A DNA stretch of 64,000 nucleotides, from positions 62,001 to 126,000 of the forward strand of contig NZ_JAPJDA010000005.1 of the NCBI RefSeq assembly GCF_026241755.1, written 5' to 3'. Made by a program: the position numbers and the translations under genes. The notes below the pieces were generated by a model. The model was not told the DNA's origin. It saw only the letters and a list, made by a program, of their open reading frames with translations, and made no database searches. Positions within the stretch are counted from its first letter, which is position 1, and each line of letters starts with the position of its first letter. The stretch is from Salinimicrobium profundisediminis (GTDB lineage: Bacteria; Bacteroidota; Bacteroidia; Flavobacteriales; Flavobacteriaceae). Positions 48,019-54,002 of the stretch are shown here, piece after piece.

Positions 48019-49704
48019 ATGATGACAACTTCTCCACTCACCGATTTGGATATCGCTCATAAAATTCAATTAACCCCCATTACAGAAATAGCTCAAAAGC
48101 TTGGTCTTGATCCAGATGATATTGAGATGTACGGGAAATATAAGGCTAAGATACCGCTTCACAATATTGATCACGACAAAATAAAACAAAGCAATCTCGT
48201 TCTTGTTTCGGCTATTTCACCAACTCCTGCAGGAGAAGGAAAAACCACCGTCTCTATAGGTCTTTCAGAAGCTATGAACAGGATTGGCAAGAAAACCACT
48301 GTAGTGCTGAGAGAACCTTCATTAGGCCCTGTTTTTGGATTAAAAGGGGGCGCTACCGGAGGAGGGTATTCACAGGTCTTACCCATGGAAGACATCAACC
48401 TTCACTTTACCGGAGATTTTTCGGCTATTGAAAAAGCTCACAATCTTTTGGCAGCTCTTGTAGATAATAATATTCAGTCAAAAACAAATAATTTAGGAAT
48501 TGATCCGCGGACGGTTTCCCTAAAACGGGTGATGGATGTTAATGACCGTTCCCTGCGGAATATTGTTATAGGACTTGGCGGAACAGGTTCAGGAATTCCC
48601 CGAGAAAGCGGGTTTGATATTACTGCGGCTTCCGAAATTATGGCCATCATGTGCCTTGCTGAAAACCTGGAGGACCTAAAAGGGCGTTTGGGAAACATAT
48701 TTATTGGCTACACCTTTGATAAAAAAGCCATCTATGCCCGCGACCTCAATGCAGAAGGTGCCATGGCTACACTCTTAAAAGATGCACTTAAACCTAACCT
48801 GGTGCAAACCATAGAAGGGAATCCTGCCATAATCCACCTTGGCCCGTTTGCCAACATAGCTCAGGGAACTAATTCTGTGATCGCCACCCGCATGGGGATG
48901 AGTCTTTCTGATTATACAGTCACCGAAGCCGGATTTGGTTTTGACCTTGGTGCAGAAAAATTTCTGGATATTAAATGTCAAAGCGCAGACCTTACTCCCA
49001 AGGTTGTGGTAATGACCGCGACAATACGAGCTTTAAAATACCATGGTGGGGTACCTCTTTCTTCTCTCACTATTCCAAATGTAGAGGCTTTAGAAAAAGG
49101 ATTGCCCAATTTAGAGAAACACCTGGAAAATGCCCGCCTGTTTAATATCACTCCTGTTATAGCCATAAATAAATTCTACAGTGACAGTAATGAAGAGATA
49201 CAGGTGATCATAGACCTGGCTAAAAAACTGAATATAAAAGTTGCAGTTTCTGATGGCTGGGCAAAAGGAGGGGAAGGCGCTCTTGATCTCGCAAAAAAGG
49301 TGGTAGAAGCTATTGAAGAAGACCGTTCTAACTTTACACCACTTTATGATTGGGAAGATTCGGTTATGAATAAAATAGAGACCATTGCAAAAAAAATATA
49401 TGGGGCCGATAGGGTTGAATACGCTGCAAAAGCAAGACGGGATCTAAAGACTATTTCCAATCTTGAATTAGATCATTTACCCGTTTGTATTGCTAAAACA
49501 CAAAAATCATTGTCAGACAACCCCTTACTTATAGGAAGACCAACAGGTTTTACGCTAACCGTTAGGGAGATTGAGATCGCTGCCGGTGCAGGATTTTTAA
49601 TCCCAATTACAGGAGATATGATGCGCATGCCCGGATTACCGGCACACCCTGCATCAGAGAATATAAATATAGATTTGGAAGGAAATATTTCGGGGCTAAT
49701 ATAG
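48019..49704 (+). CDS. fhs: Formate--tetrahydrofolate ligase
   Basis: 561 residues (family about 556), starting MMTTSPLTD; a second ATG follows directly. ATP-driven attachment of formate to tetrahydrofolate, giving 10-formyl-THF for purine and initiator tRNA use. P-loop TPAGEGKTTVSIGL (about 69-82), then the family sequences GPVFGLKGGATGGGYSQVLPMEDINLHFTGDF and EGNPAIIHLGPFANIAQGTNS. Its own promoter-like element and terminator mark it as a single-gene transcript. The enzyme is in core one-carbon metabolism and does not imply an acetogenic pathway. Confidence 0.97.
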   Translation: MMTTSPLTDLDIAHKIQLTPITEIAQKLGLDPDDIEMYGKYKAKIPLHNIDHDKIKQSNLVLVSAISPTPAGEGKTTVSIGLSEAMNRIGKKTTVVLREPSLGPVFGLKGGATGGGYSQVLPMEDINLHFTGDFSAIEKAHNLLAALVDNNIQSKTNNLGIDPRTVSLKRVMDVNDRSLRNIVIGLGGTGSGIPRESGFDITAASEIMAIMCLAENLEDLKGRLGNIFIGYTFDKKAIYARDLNAEGAMATLLKDALKPNLVQTIEGNPAIIHLGPFANIAQGTNSVIATRMGMSLSDYTVTEAGFGFDLGAEKFLDIKCQSADLTPKVVVMTATIRALKYHGGVPLSSLTIPNVEALEKGLPNLEKHLENARLFNITPVIAINKFYSDSNEEIQVIIDLAKKLNIKVAVSDGWAKGGEGALDLAKKVVEAIEEDRSNFTPLYDWEDSVMNKIETIAKKIYGADRVEYAAKARRDLKTISNLELDHLPVCIAKTQKSLSDNPLLIGRPTGFTLTVREIEIAAGAGFLIPITGDMMRMPGLPAHPASENINIDLEGNISGLI

Positions 49705-49734
49705 AGCAAGATCTGTTTGCTTCCATTGAATAAG

Positions 49735-49764
49735 AACCTTCCGGCCTTTCCGGGAGGTTTTTTA
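49735..49764 (+). terminator. Terminator after fhs
   Basis: 10-bp stem AACCTTCCGG (49735-49744) with CCGGGAGGTT (49750-49759, one G.U pair), 5-base loop, run of T. Confidence 0.75.
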
Positions 49765-50007
49765 TTGGTTCATATAGCTCTTTTTAGGCATTGAACTCTT
49801 TCAAACGTTCAGTTTTTTCAAACCCTCAATGTAATCTGCCGCAAAATGTTTGTCGGATAAAAATATTAGGTTAACAAATTATAAACCATTATTTTAAAGG
49901 TCTTCAAAAAGGAAGTTTTACTTTTAGTTAAGCTTTTTGAAAAAATATTCCGGCACCGAATTTTCAGAAGAATTTTGATATACCTTTGAATATATTTAAA
50001 CCATTTA
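49765..50007 (+). promoter_or_regulatory. Upstream region of the amidoligase cassette with a -7 element
   Basis: 243 bases without a gene between the fhs terminator and the RimK-like gene. A TACCTTTG at 49981-49988 fits TAnnTTTG exactly; no TTG at the right distance. The start point would be near 49995, giving a 13-base leader. I see no other structure. Confidence 0.5.
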
Positions 50008-51465
50008 ATGAAGAAATTTTTAGTTGTAAATAATCCCGAAAACTGGAACCTTGCACTTGAGAATATGGAGGTGATTTCGGCCAGGGACTATCTTACAAAT
50101 CCTGAATATGCCCGTCTTAAAAAAGCACGTATTTTTAATTTATGTAAGGATTATTCTTACCAAAGTAAGGGGTATTATGTTTCACTTTTAGCTGAGGCTC
50201 GTGGTCACCTCGCAATTCCTACTGTGATGAACCTGGTAGATTTACGGGAACCAAAGCTTGTTAAGATCGTCTCAGATGAATTTGATGATCTTATTCAAAA
50301 AAGTTTAAAGGGAATTAAGTCAGCCGAGTTTACCCTTAGCATTTATTTTGGGCAGAATGTTGCTCAAAAGTACAGGGAACTGAGTGCTATGTTTCACCGG
50401 CACTTTCAAATACCATTTTTGAGAGTGAAGTTCTCTTACACCAACAGGTGGAATATCAAATCTATTAAAGCTTTATCTGAAGTAGAGATCCCCAATGAAC
50501 ACCGGGATGCTATGAGGCAGTTTGCCATACAGTATTTTGCAAAGAAGCGTTACGATACCCCTAAAAATGAAACTTTTGAGTACGATCTGGCAATTCTTGT
50601 GCAAGATCACGATCCTGCGCCGCCAAGTAATCCTAAAGCTCTAAAGAAATTTGTAGAGATTGCCGAAAAAATGAACTTTTATGTAGAGTTTGTCTCTCCA
50701 AAAGATCTTTCAAGACTGTCGTCTTTTGACGCCCTTTTTATCAGGCAAAGTACAGAGGTGAACAATGAAGCCTATGCTTTTGCCCGCAAAGCTCAACAGG
50801 AAGATATAGCCATCGTTGATTATCCCGATGCTATCCTTAAGTGCTGTAATAAAGTTTTTATGGCCGAAGCCCTTGAGAATTCAGGTATTCCCACTCCTAA
50901 AACTATCATTGTTCACAAAGACAACCGCAATAACGTTATTGAGAAGACCGGACTTCCGCTAGTTTTGAAATCACCTGATTCTACTTTTTCTTTTGGGGTG
51001 AAAAAAGCTGCTACTGCCGAAGAATATGAAAAACTGGTTGGGGAGATGCTTAAAAAATCTGAACTTGTAATAGCACAGGAATATACGCCTTCAGATTATG
51101 ACTGGCGAATAGGTATTCTTGATGATAAACCGCTCTTTGCCTGCCGTTACTATATGGCCAAAGGCCACTGGCAAATCTACAACTGGAATGCCAGCAAAAA
51201 AGATGACCAGGAAGGTAATGCAGACGTAATGTCTATTGATGAAGTTCCAAAAAAGATCATGGATGTAGCTCTTCGTTCGGCAAGGCTTATGGGAAAAGGC
51301 CTCTATGGGATTGATGTAAAAGAAGTAAATGGAAAACCTCTTGTCATAGAAATCAATGACAATCCAAACATAGATTTTGGGGTAGAAGATCGTTTCTATG
51401 GTGATAAAATTTATACCGAAATTATTACTGCTCTTAAAAATCGCCTTGAAAAGAAATCGGAATGA
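50008..51465 (+). CDS. RimK-like ATP-grasp ligase with N-terminal RLAN domain
   Basis: 485 residues. The ATP-grasp fold (about 285-480) has the ATP-binding lysine and loop LVLKSPDSTFSFGVKK, the linker IAQEYTPSDYDWRIGI, and the metal residues GIDVKEVNGKPLVIEINDNP (Asp, Glu, Asn). The N-terminal part (about 1-200) matches the RLAN-type domain of RimK-like proteins. RimK adds glutamate to ribosomal protein S6; this class, with a different N-terminal domain, is thought to join amino acids or peptides to an unknown acceptor. The next gene overlaps by 4 bases (ATGA), so the two ligases are coupled. I infer an amide-forming role for the pathway; substrate unproven. Confidence 0.88.
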   Translation: MKKFLVVNNPENWNLALENMEVISARDYLTNPEYARLKKARIFNLCKDYSYQSKGYYVSLLAEARGHLAIPTVMNLVDLREPKLVKIVSDEFDDLIQKSLKGIKSAEFTLSIYFGQNVAQKYRELSAMFHRHFQIPFLRVKFSYTNRWNIKSIKALSEVEIPNEHRDAMRQFAIQYFAKKRYDTPKNETFEYDLAILVQDHDPAPPSNPKALKKFVEIAEKMNFYVEFVSPKDLSRLSSFDALFIRQSTEVNNEAYAFARKAQQEDIAIVDYPDAILKCCNKVFMAEALENSGIPTPKTIIVHKDNRNNVIEKTGLPLVLKSPDSTFSFGVKKAATAEEYEKLVGEMLKKSELVIAQEYTPSDYDWRIGILDDKPLFACRYYMAKGHWQIYNWNASKKDDQEGNADVMSIDEVPKKIMDVALRSARLMGKGLYGIDVKEVNGKPLVIEINDNPNIDFGVEDRFYGDKIYTEIITALKNRLEKKSE

Positions 51466-52682
51466 GTTATCAGCTTTTTGAAGTTTACGGGATAGAACTG
51501 GAGTACATGTTGGTAGACGCTGCCACAATGAAAGTGAAGCCGGTTGTAGATAAATTATTGACCAAAAAGAATGGAGCTTTAACTTCGGATGTTGAAAATG
51601 GTAAGATAGAATGGAGCAATGAGCTTGTAGCACATGTAGTGGAATTAAAAACCAATGGGCCTACCGCCAATCTTGATACCCTGGATGATCTTTTTGCTGA
51701 AAATATTGGCGAAATCAACGATTTGCTCAAGGAATTTAATGCTAAACTGTTACCCACAGCGGCTCATCCTCTCATGGATCCCGAAACAGAAATGCAGTTG
51801 TGGCAGCACAACTACAGCAAAATATACGCACTCTACAATCGTATTTTTGACTGTAGGGGGCATGGCTGGAGCAATGTTCAAAGTATGCATATAAATCTGC
51901 CATTTTTGGGAGATGCAGAATTTGAGAAGTTACATGCTGCGGTAAGGATCCTGCTACCAGTAATTCCTGGATTAAGTGCCAGTTCGCCCATTTTTGAGGG
52001 AAAACTTACCGGCTTTAAAGATGCCCGGATGCATGTATATAAAACCAATCAAAAAGAAATTCCGGAGATGACCGGTAAAGTCATTCCCGAACAACTCTTT
52101 TCAAAAAAGGATTATTACAGCCGAATTTTTGAACCTATCAATAAGGCAATAAAACCACATGATACTGAGAATATTCTCGATCATCATTTTCTGAATTCAA
52201 GAGGAGCTATTGCCCGCTTTGATCGTGGTGCTATCGAAATAAGAGTGATAGACCTGCAGGAATGCCCAAAAGCTGATGTTGCCATAGCAGTACTCATCAT
52301 TGAAGCCCTGAAGTTACTGGTTAGTGAAGAACTGGTGTCTCTGGAGGATCAAAAAAAGTGGCATGAAAATGCCCTTTTTGAAATCTTTAATGACGTGATC
52401 GTAGATGCTGAAGCAACTATCATTCAAAATGCCGCATTTGCTGATATTTTTGATTTACAGCCCGAAAGTTCTGTTAAAGATCTATGGAGTAGAATTTATT
52501 CACTTGTGAAGGAAAATATTTCTGAAAAACACCAGAAGAGTATCGAGTTTTTACTGCAGCACGGAAGCCTTTCTACAAGAATTCTTAAAACTTTGGATGA
52601 GAACCCATCTAAAGCAGAGATCACAAAAGTTTATGAGGAATTGGGGAATTGTCTTCAGGAAAACAGGTTCTTCGAGGTGTAA
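51462..52682 (+). CDS. GCS2-type carboxylate-amine ligase (YbdK-like)
   Basis: 406 residues. Glutamate-cysteine ligase superfamily fold: GIELEYMLVD (paired acidic ligands), VQSMHINLPF (His/Asn metal or ATP ligands), and SRGAIARFDRGAIEIRVIDLQECP. E. coli YbdK has weak glutamate-cysteine ligase activity; here, with RimK and an FGase-like gene, it more likely condenses a carboxylate with an amine in a dedicated route. ATGA overlap with the RimK-like gene (51462-51465) shows coupling. The amidohydrolase gene follows after 42 bases. No glutathione synthetase gene is visible in the window. Confidence 0.88.
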   Translation: MSYQLFEVYGIELEYMLVDAATMKVKPVVDKLLTKKNGALTSDVENGKIEWSNELVAHVVELKTNGPTANLDTLDDLFAENIGEINDLLKEFNAKLLPTAAHPLMDPETEMQLWQHNYSKIYALYNRIFDCRGHGWSNVQSMHINLPFLGDAEFEKLHAAVRILLPVIPGLSASSPIFEGKLTGFKDARMHVYKTNQKEIPEMTGKVIPEQLFSKKDYYSRIFEPINKAIKPHDTENILDHHFLNSRGAIARFDRGAIEIRVIDLQECPKADVAIAVLIIEALKLLVSEELVSLEDQKKWHENALFEIFNDVIVDAEATIIQNAAFADIFDLQPESSVKDLWSRIYSLVKENISEKHQKSIEFLLQHGSLSTRILKTLDENPSKAEITKVYEELGNCLQENRFFEV

Positions 52683-52724
52683 CTACCAGTAATTTATTCT
52701 GAAATTAACCACTAAAACTAAGCT

Positions 52725-53408
52725 TTGAATCTTATACTAACCTGTGAACACGCCGGAAATGAAATTCCGCAGGAATATGAACAACTGTTTTCAGAAGCGC
52801 AGGAAGTGCTGGAGACGCACCGGGGTTATGATCCCGGAGCATTAGATCTATTCCAGGAGCTTTCGCCTTTGGCAGTTTTTAGGCAGGAATATATGATAAG
52901 CAGGCTTTTGGTGGAACCTAACCGTTCGCTGGGCCATCCGCAGCTTTTTTCAGAATTTACAGCCCAACTTCAGGAGGCTCAAAAAGAGCAAATTCTGGAA
53001 GATTTTTATATCCCATACCGGACTTATATTGAAAGCAGGATTGGCGATCTTATTTCAGCAGGCAAAGAAATTGTACATATTTCGGTTCATAGTTTTACGC
53101 CAGAGCTTAATGGGGAGGTAAGAAATGCTGATATTGGCCTGCTCTTTGATCCCGCCCGTAAGAGTGAAGTGAAATTCTGTGAAAGATTTGAAGAAAGTCT
53201 TCTTCAGCAGAATGAAAATTTGCGGGTAAGATTCAATTATCCCTATTTGGGGATTGATGACGGATTTACTACTTATCTGCGCCAAAAATTTCCGCAGCAA
53301 TATTTGGGCATTGAGCTGGAGGTTAATCAAAAGTTTGTTCAAAATAATAAAATGGAAAAGCACTTCAAAAATGACATTTTTGAAGCGCTTTTCAGGTTAA
53401 TGTCATAA
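52725..53408 (+). CDS. N-formylglutamate amidohydrolase-like protein
   Basis: 227 residues of the FGase family (HutG/COG3931-like). It has LILTCEHAGNEIP (the metal-binding CEHAGN), THRGYDPGALDLF, VEPNRSLGHPQLF, HISVHSFTPEL and an IGIEL-type end, the usual motif order. Zinc-dependent amidases of this family hydrolyse N-formylglutamate or N-acyl amino acids; without hut genes nearby, histidine breakdown is unlikely. The start is TTG at 52725. Position directly after two ligases suggests it removes or recycles an acyl group. The last codons encode a full copy of the palindromic repeat (53365-53383). Confidence 0.88.
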   Translation: MNLILTCEHAGNEIPQEYEQLFSEAQEVLETHRGYDPGALDLFQELSPLAVFRQEYMISRLLVEPNRSLGHPQLFSEFTAQLQEAQKEQILEDFYIPYRTYIESRIGDLISAGKEIVHISVHSFTPELNGEVRNADIGLLFDPARKSEVKFCERFEESLLQQNENLRVRFNYPYLGIDDGFTTYLRQKFPQQYLGIELEVNQKFVQNNKMEKHFKNDIFEALFRLMS

Positions 53409-53416
53409 TTGGCCTC

Positions 53417-53830
53417 TTAACCGTTGAGGGTAGAGTCCAGGGTGATTTCTGAATTAAGTAATTTTGAAATAGGACAATTTTCTTTAGCGTGCTTCACCAG
53501 CTCATTAAATTTATCCTGCGAGATGCCGGGTACTTTTGCTGTGAGAATTAGGTGAGACTTCTTGATGGTTCCATCCTCAAAGGTGATCTCGCATTTTGTT
53601 TCAAGTTCAACCGGATTAAATTCTTCTTTACTAAGATTGGCCGAAAGCTGCATTGTAAAACAGCCGGCATGTGCAGCTCCAATAAGCTCTTCAGGATTTG
53701 TTCCTTTTTCATCTTCAAACCGGGTGTGAAAGGAATAGGGAGTTTTTTGCAGTACCTGACTTTGGGTAGATAAATTTCCTTTTCCTTCTTTGATTGTGCC
53801 GTTCCATACGGCTGTTGCTTTTCTTTTCAT
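53417..53830 (-). CDS. OsmC family peroxiredoxin-like protein
   Basis: 137 residues. Thiol-dependent reduction of organic hydroperoxides. Redox cysteines Cys57 (GAAHAGCFTMQLSA) and Cys119 (AKENCPISKLL) are both present at the family spacing, and the N-terminal KATAVWNGTIKEGKGNLSTQS with NPEELIGAAHAGC is OsmC-type rather than Ohr. OsmC is often induced by osmotic stress. Transcribed alone, 8 bases convergent with the amidohydrolase gene. Confidence 0.92.
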   Translation of the reverse strand: MKRKATAVWNGTIKEGKGNLSTQSQVLQKTPYSFHTRFEDEKGTNPEELIGAAHAGCFTMQLSANLSKEEFNPVELETKCEITFEDGTIKKSHLILTAKVPGISQDKFNELVKHAKENCPISKLLNSEITLDSTLNG

Positions 53831-54002
53831 GCTTAGGTTTGGTTTTTAAGTGATTTCATATTTGTAACAAAGGAGTAGCGAACATGTTTACTGCTATGTT
53901 CTTTCATATACTTTGTTGAAATGGTCCACGATAGTAATTTTTTTCTGTAACTATTTTAGGACTTTTGAAGATACAATTTTCTCATTAAGAATTAGCCTGC
54001 AA

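Follow-up and report, generated by a model that had tools for sequence, protein, structure and literature searches.

Glutathione synthesis combines a gamma-glutamyl ligase with an ATP-grasp ligase, RimK adds amino acids to ribosomal protein S6, and Ngg consists of a GNAT acetyltransferase plus an ATP-grasp ligase. Operons of amidoligases were reportedly predicted by Iyer and co-workers in 2009, and we take theirs to be the earlier survey to which later work on ATP-grasp families refers. PMC8070244 describes Ngg, of the asnO-ngg pathway for N-acetylglutaminylglutamine amide (NAGGN), as a single protein with two reactions, the N-acetylation of one glutamine and the formation of the peptide bond, which together make an N-capped dipeptide. 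PMC4431377, citing an earlier survey, states that linkage of ATP-grasp, COOH-NH2 and GNAT ligases had already been noted, and it suggests for other ATP-grasp families that a linked GNAT caps the product. Here we describe a three-gene cassette in a 64,000-nucleotide stretch of the Salinimicrobium profundisediminis genome (GCF_026241755.1, contig NZ_JAPJDA010000005.1, positions 62,001 to 126,000; hereafter the window), which encodes an ATP-grasp ligase with an RLAN domain, a GCS2-type carboxylate-amine ligase and an FGase-type amidohydrolase (Table 1). In a reading that falls just short of probable, the cassette serves both to make and to break down a small N-capped peptide metabolite. Linked amidoligases of this sort, with ATP-grasp and COOH-NH2 or GNAT ligases side by side, were predicted earlier in outline. 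Among the matches listed from the open-licence literature, nothing concerned the RLAN-GCS2-FGase set, its product, or an exchange of GCS2 and GNAT; RLAN and glutamate-cysteine had no occurrence in the available parts of PMC4431377 and PMC8939145, nor RimK and glutamate-cysteine ligase in PMC2922099.

The reading frames and Pfam matches bore out what a sequence-only reading of this locus had claimed of its layout, namely the gene coordinates, the three families, the ATGA at 51462 that the RLAN ligase and GCS2 frames share as a 4-base overlap, and the 42 bases between the GCS2 gene and the start of the FGase gene. The first protein belongs to the RLAN family (PF14401, 164.3 bits; Pfam cut-off 25), fused to an ATP-grasp part that matched RimK PF08443 (39.2 bits; cut-off 21). 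The second belongs to the GCS2 fold family (PF04107, 96.1 bits; cut-off 21), and the third has the FGase domain of N-formylglutamate deformylase HutG (PF05013, 77.2 bits; cut-off 28.9). Each of the latter two is the sole match to its Pfam family in the genome. The parts of the cassette nevertheless bear the names of enzymes whose own models they fail to reach. The RLAN protein stayed below the RimK (ribosomal protein S6 ligase) models TIGR00768 (71.1 of 143.4 bits) and NF007764 (37.3 of 331), had neither PF02955 nor Rimk_N among its Pfam matches, and did not include the Ngg model TIGR03103 among the 18 families that it matched at E 0.001. The GCS2 protein stayed below the glutamate-cysteine ligase/YbdK models PRK13515 (64.8 of 371), TIGR02050 (59.7 of 176.4) and TIGR02048 (29.8 of 249.05), and the FGase protein matched no NCBIfam model at E 0.001.

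Structure prediction agreed with these assignments at the level of the fold. The GCS2 model (predicted local distance difference test score, pLDDT, 89.2) best matched the plant glutamate-cysteine ligase 2gwc and also the YbdK-type structures 1tt4 and 1r8g (Foldseek E 5.9e-13 to 4.5e-12, best chain each), while the RLAN model (pLDDT 83.8; predicted template modelling score, pTM, 0.60) matched RimK 5zk6 and LysX/ArgX, with no separate fold search for the RLAN part. The closest solved relative of the FGase protein is Atu2144 (2odf). Alignments of 17 GCS2, 14 RLAN and 14 FGase proteins showed that G10, E12, E14, R189, E259, R261 and D264 are invariant in GCS2, that K321, D436, E448 and N450 are invariant in the RLAN protein (E358 in 13 of the 14), and that C7, E8, H9, R60, N66, H118, H122, E197 and E199 are invariant in FGase. 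The invariant polar residues of all three proteins include those expected of their folds; roles for single residues would follow by analogy, for the RLAN protein by alignment to RimK.

Table 1. Features of the cassette and its flanks (positions within the window).
Feature	Position	Strand	Remarks
RLAN domain + RimK/LysX-like ATP-grasp amide ligase gene	50008..51465	+	485 amino acids; Pfam, model, conserved residues
GCS2-type carboxylate-amine ligase gene	51462..52682	+	406 amino acids; Pfam, model, conserved residues
FGase-type amidohydrolase gene	52725..53408	+	227 amino acids, TTG start; Pfam, conserved residues
Intrinsic terminator after formate-tetrahydrofolate ligase gene	49732..49762	+	13-pair stem + T run; fold -20.3 kcal/mol, z -3.5
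TACCTTTG, TAnnTTTG match	49981..49988	+	motif kept upstream of related cassettes
Strong hairpin in final codons of FGase gene	53355..53393	.	terminator-like on - strand; fold of 53345-53415 z -6.5

The sequence-only reading had made conservation of the three-gene order in relatives the test of its pathway idea, and the order is conserved. In a sample of 43 loci from named genomes, RLAN precedes GCS2 in 42 and FGase follows GCS2 in 42, both missing genes being explained by contig ends. In a survey of 395 Bacteroidota genomes, an RLAN match was found in 44 and this GCS2 subfamily in 30, and in 30 of these 30 an RLAN gene lies directly upstream on the same strand (Fisher p 1e-34 over the 395 genomes, a value that ignores kinship). 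From this adjacency, the grouping is far beyond chance, and the RLAN-GCS2 pair occurs in about 1 of 13 sampled Bacteroidota genomes (30/395). FGase stands beside GCS2 in 21 of the 30 and is a non-obligatory member of the set. A class sample of 149 genomes, overlapping the larger survey in part, had a strong GCS2 match in 8, RLAN in 7 of these and FGase in 4 of those 7. Beyond Bacteroidota, where the search covered plasmid records, a Legionella adelaidensis record repeats the order RLAN, GCS2, FGase, with a DUF4332 gene right after them (L080:3310-3714).

The partner of the RLAN ligase appears to be exchangeable. Among the 44 RLAN genomes of the survey, the partner is GCS2 in 30, a GNAT fused in front of RLAN in 12 and a GNAT-C39 neighbour in one (G285), so that GNAT is found in 13 of the 14 without GCS2; the last, G496, has a weak RLAN match with stops and no partner found. 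When 101 loci were scanned with a GNAT profile, 17 gave a match, none of them one of the 79 that carry GCS2. RLAN follows a GNAT-C39 gene in both Azospirillum and Tistrella, and its neighbor in Aeromonas is a GNAT gene on the opposite strand. On a tree built from 63 RLAN proteins, 42 GCS2 rows and a clade of ten GNAT rows (100/100) meet at a fork with 92/92 support, with another GCS2 clade outside; none of 200 bootstrap trees (0%) keeps GCS2 as a single group, and the GNAT label needs two changes and all three labels together three. Read at face value, this topology implies a change of partner between GCS2 and GNAT.

GNAT enzymes acylate amines; what GCS2 ligases attach to an amine is a carboxylate, most often the gamma group of glutamate. 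With the amine as their common target, GCS2 and GNAT are most simply read as supplying an exchangeable cap to the product of one ligase. They look like two alternative ways of capping an amine for the same peptide ligase, with precedents in glutathione and NAGGN synthesis. We tentatively propose, as a generalization that is possible but less than probable, that RLAN ligases form a modular class with a lineage-exchangeable amine cap, gamma-glutamyl via GCS2 or acetyl via GNAT. The N-capped peptides so made, in Bacteroidota and in part of the Pseudomonadota, would be an undescribed family, and FGase would dismantle them. The GNAT-RLAN fusions have the same fold order as Ngg. TIGR03103, however, was far under its cut-off where it matched among the families listed (34.4 and 38.1 bits of 569, via the GNAT part), and the cassette in the window has GCS2 rather than GNAT.

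If the cassette indeed makes and unmakes a small N-capped peptide, GCS2 would use ATP to cap an amine with a gamma-glutamyl or similar acyl group, and the RLAN-ATP-grasp enzyme, like RimK and LysX, would activate a carboxylate with ATP as an acyl phosphate and join it to a second amino acid, the two together giving a glutathione-shaped cap-X-Y compound. In the sister lineages, the GNAT fused to the RLAN ligase in GCS2's stead would give an acetyl-capped counterpart, like Ngg in NAGGN synthesis. The FGase-type enzyme would hydrolyse an amide adjoining a free carboxylate and so remove the cap or the last residue for recycling, and the C39-like protein, where found, may transfer or cleave a peptidyl group. 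We infer these substrates and the product from fold, residues, gene order and partner exchange; a stress or solute role of the product is a guess. FGase also takes the place of an AstE/AspA-type hydrolase next to a different ATP-grasp ligase: in two loci (L233 and L234, in G341 and G301), it joins a pair of a glutathione-synthetase-like (GSH-S) gene and a gene of MATCAP, the family of microtubule-associated tyrosine carboxypeptidases, instead of AstE_AspA, which we count in favor of the capped-peptide proposal. Were this proposal true, a large phylum would make a glutathione-shaped or NAGGN-like metabolite without a known structure, and the swap of GCS2 for GNAT that occurs in nature would point chemists to the amine.

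Several observations weigh against the capped-peptide proposal. FGase has no place beside GCS2 in 9 of the 30 survey genomes, and of the 7 class-sample genomes with the RLAN-GCS2 pair, 3 lack it; relatives of FGase stand alone in G214, G281 and G490, and others occur in G051 and G088, both without a GCS2 or RLAN hit. One genome (G123, locus L062) has a GCS2 of this subfamily and no RLAN hit, the one exception to the pairing, and in a Pseudomonas neither type of partner, GNAT or GCS2, lies within 6 kb of the RLAN gene. The deciding fork of the tree (92/92) is below the top support class, the starred branches force just one GCS2 change, and long branches are flagged among the outer rows. A query that finds the C39-like gene elsewhere did not find it in the window's genome. 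A role in halophily or salt tolerance, judged by proteome acidity, was not significant (p 0.55 for 4 versus 17 genomes of the window's family, 0.08 for 19 versus 33 over all, and 0.07 for the 42 named loci versus 17; seven stretches were dropped as too short, and two rows with ratios above 3, probably spurious frames, were kept).

The main rival is the tagging of a protein tail, in which the RLAN-ATP-grasp enzyme with GCS2 would add amino acids to a protein end or side chain and FGase, with the C39-like peptidase elsewhere, would remove them. We consider this unlikely. The nearest matches of the RLAN model, RimK and LysX/ArgX, act on proteins, and GCS2-fold relatives include the pupylation enzymes PafA and Dop. 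The RimK/LysX-type fold and the occurrence of FGase or AstE-type hydrolases by ATP-grasp ligases also recall the other ligase loci of the window's genome. There, a MATCAP-family gene, a GSH-S-like ATP-grasp gene and an AstE/AspA hydrolase stand in a row (L231:4023-8151, G000:C35), and a true RimK (NF007764, 408.7 bits; cut-off 331) lies between a Zn_protease-family gene and an AstE/AspA hydrolase (L235:5324-7623, G000:C24), a third ligase-plus-hydrolase set in this genome. Unlike that RimK, which has Rimk_N, the cassette ligase has RLAN in place of it and stays below the RimK cut-off (71.1 of 143.4 bits). No recurrent candidate target was found beside the cassette in 60 loci, though the target may be encoded elsewhere, and the GNAT/GCS2 exchange more simply fits a capped small molecule.

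The cassette could alternatively make glutathione or another gamma-glutamyl thiol, GCS2 forming gamma-glutamylcysteine and either the RLAN ligase or a GSH-S-like gene elsewhere in the genome completing the tripeptide. This seems improbable to us. Like glutathione synthesis, the cassette pairs a GCS2-fold ligase with an ATP-grasp ligase; the best structural match of GCS2 is plant glutamate-cysteine ligase, and GCS2 is the genome's only PF04107 match. The GSH-S gene on contig C35 passes NF009110 (438.9 bits; cut-off 408), and an OsmC-type gene occurs in 30 of the 43 named loci. The cassette differs, however, in an ATP-grasp ligase that is RLAN/RimK-like and has no PF02955 match, in a GCS2 protein that reaches no glutamate-cysteine ligase model at cut-off (29.8 of 249.05 and 59.7 of 176.4 bits), and in a set that includes a hydrolase and, elsewhere, a C39-like gene. 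A strong GSH-S_ATP match (above 160 bits) occurs in 3 of the 30 cassette genomes, the window's own among them (G000, with G301 and G341), the others having at most 82.4 bits and six none; OsmC is in 0 of the other 58 loci scanned, and GNAT takes GCS2's place in the sister lineages.

Finally, it is very improbable that FGase is the N-formylglutamate deformylase of histidine degradation parked by an unrelated ligase pair: it is the genome's only PF05013 match and a urocanase is encoded on contig C16, but the cassette lies on a different contig (C57; besides FGase, the search for hut genes covered urocanase), FGase neighbors GCS2 in 21 of the 30 cassette genomes, the two genes overlap at 37 of 46 junctions, the FGase protein has no NCBIfam match at E 0.001, and G481 has the cassette FGase with no urocanase hit. 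The sequence-only reading had also stated that no glutathione or hut gene is in reach to explain the cassette. This holds only locally, since the genome has the GSH-S-like gene and the urocanase elsewhere. Neither gene explains the cassette in general, because strong GSH-S_ATP is confined to 3 of the 30 cassette genomes and 6 of the 30 have no urocanase hit.

The C39-like gene, which encodes a papain-fold protein, lies just ahead of RLAN in 26 of the 30 Bacteroidota GCS2 genomes, and Cys14, His174 and Asp192 are invariant in 12 sequences of it. The genomes that lack it are the four from the window's family; it is in none of the 43 named loci within the fetched stretches, and L058, outside the window's family, also lacks it. 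No further recurrent family marked a fifth member across 60 loci.

The left-bounding terminator that had been predicted was found, and it parts the cassette from the upstream formate-tetrahydrofolate ligase gene. The claim of a promoter-like element of its own stood in part. TAnnTTTG, presumably the Bacteroidota -7 promoter element, lies at most 120 bases from the start codon in 42 of the 43 upstream regions compared, which come from the window and 42 loci and are related by descent. It is at -27 to -30 in 38 and at -39 in 4, against a mean of 4.9 and a maximum of 12 of 43 regions in letter-shuffled controls. The partner TTG box, however, was seen in only 11 of the 42 motif-bearing regions and not in the window, and a sigma-70 scan of 49600-53900 gave 4 sites against 10.4 expected, none of them ahead of 50008 on the + strand. 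Counted from mechanically chosen gene starts, RLAN/GCS2 junctions overlap in 24 of 49 and GCS2/FGase junctions in 37 of 46, the latter by 4 bases in 36 of 46, unlike the 42-base gap in the window. Taken together, gene order, tight or overlapping junctions, the promoter-like element and a copy in another phylum support the interpretation of the sequence-only reading in part, as regards a conserved small pathway of two amide-forming enzymes and an amidohydrolase.

The hairpin at the end of the FGase gene sits at the junction with a convergent OsmC gene and was placed as the OsmC terminator. OsmC itself was rejected as a member of the set: it is on the opposite strand, and its distribution is that given above. 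A formate link was also rejected, as the formate-tetrahydrofolate ligase gene (48019-49704) is upstream in only 7 of the 43 loci, all Salinimicrobium, and lies behind the terminator. The aldehyde dehydrogenase neighbor, a 7-locus cluster, is superfamily noise whose other members are 23-28% identical to the query, and of two 11-locus neighbor clusters, judged by their letters, one consists of FKBP-like proteins of two kinds and the other of short, spurious-looking frames. A different, distant GCS2 (25-28% identity) occurs in an ordered cluster whose other genes are one GATase-like and two uncharacterised (L063:3459-8570, L064 and L065). Two proteins of this cluster in L063 have no Pfam match, and an esterase-like gene lies beside the cluster in L063 by Pfam and in L065 by eye.

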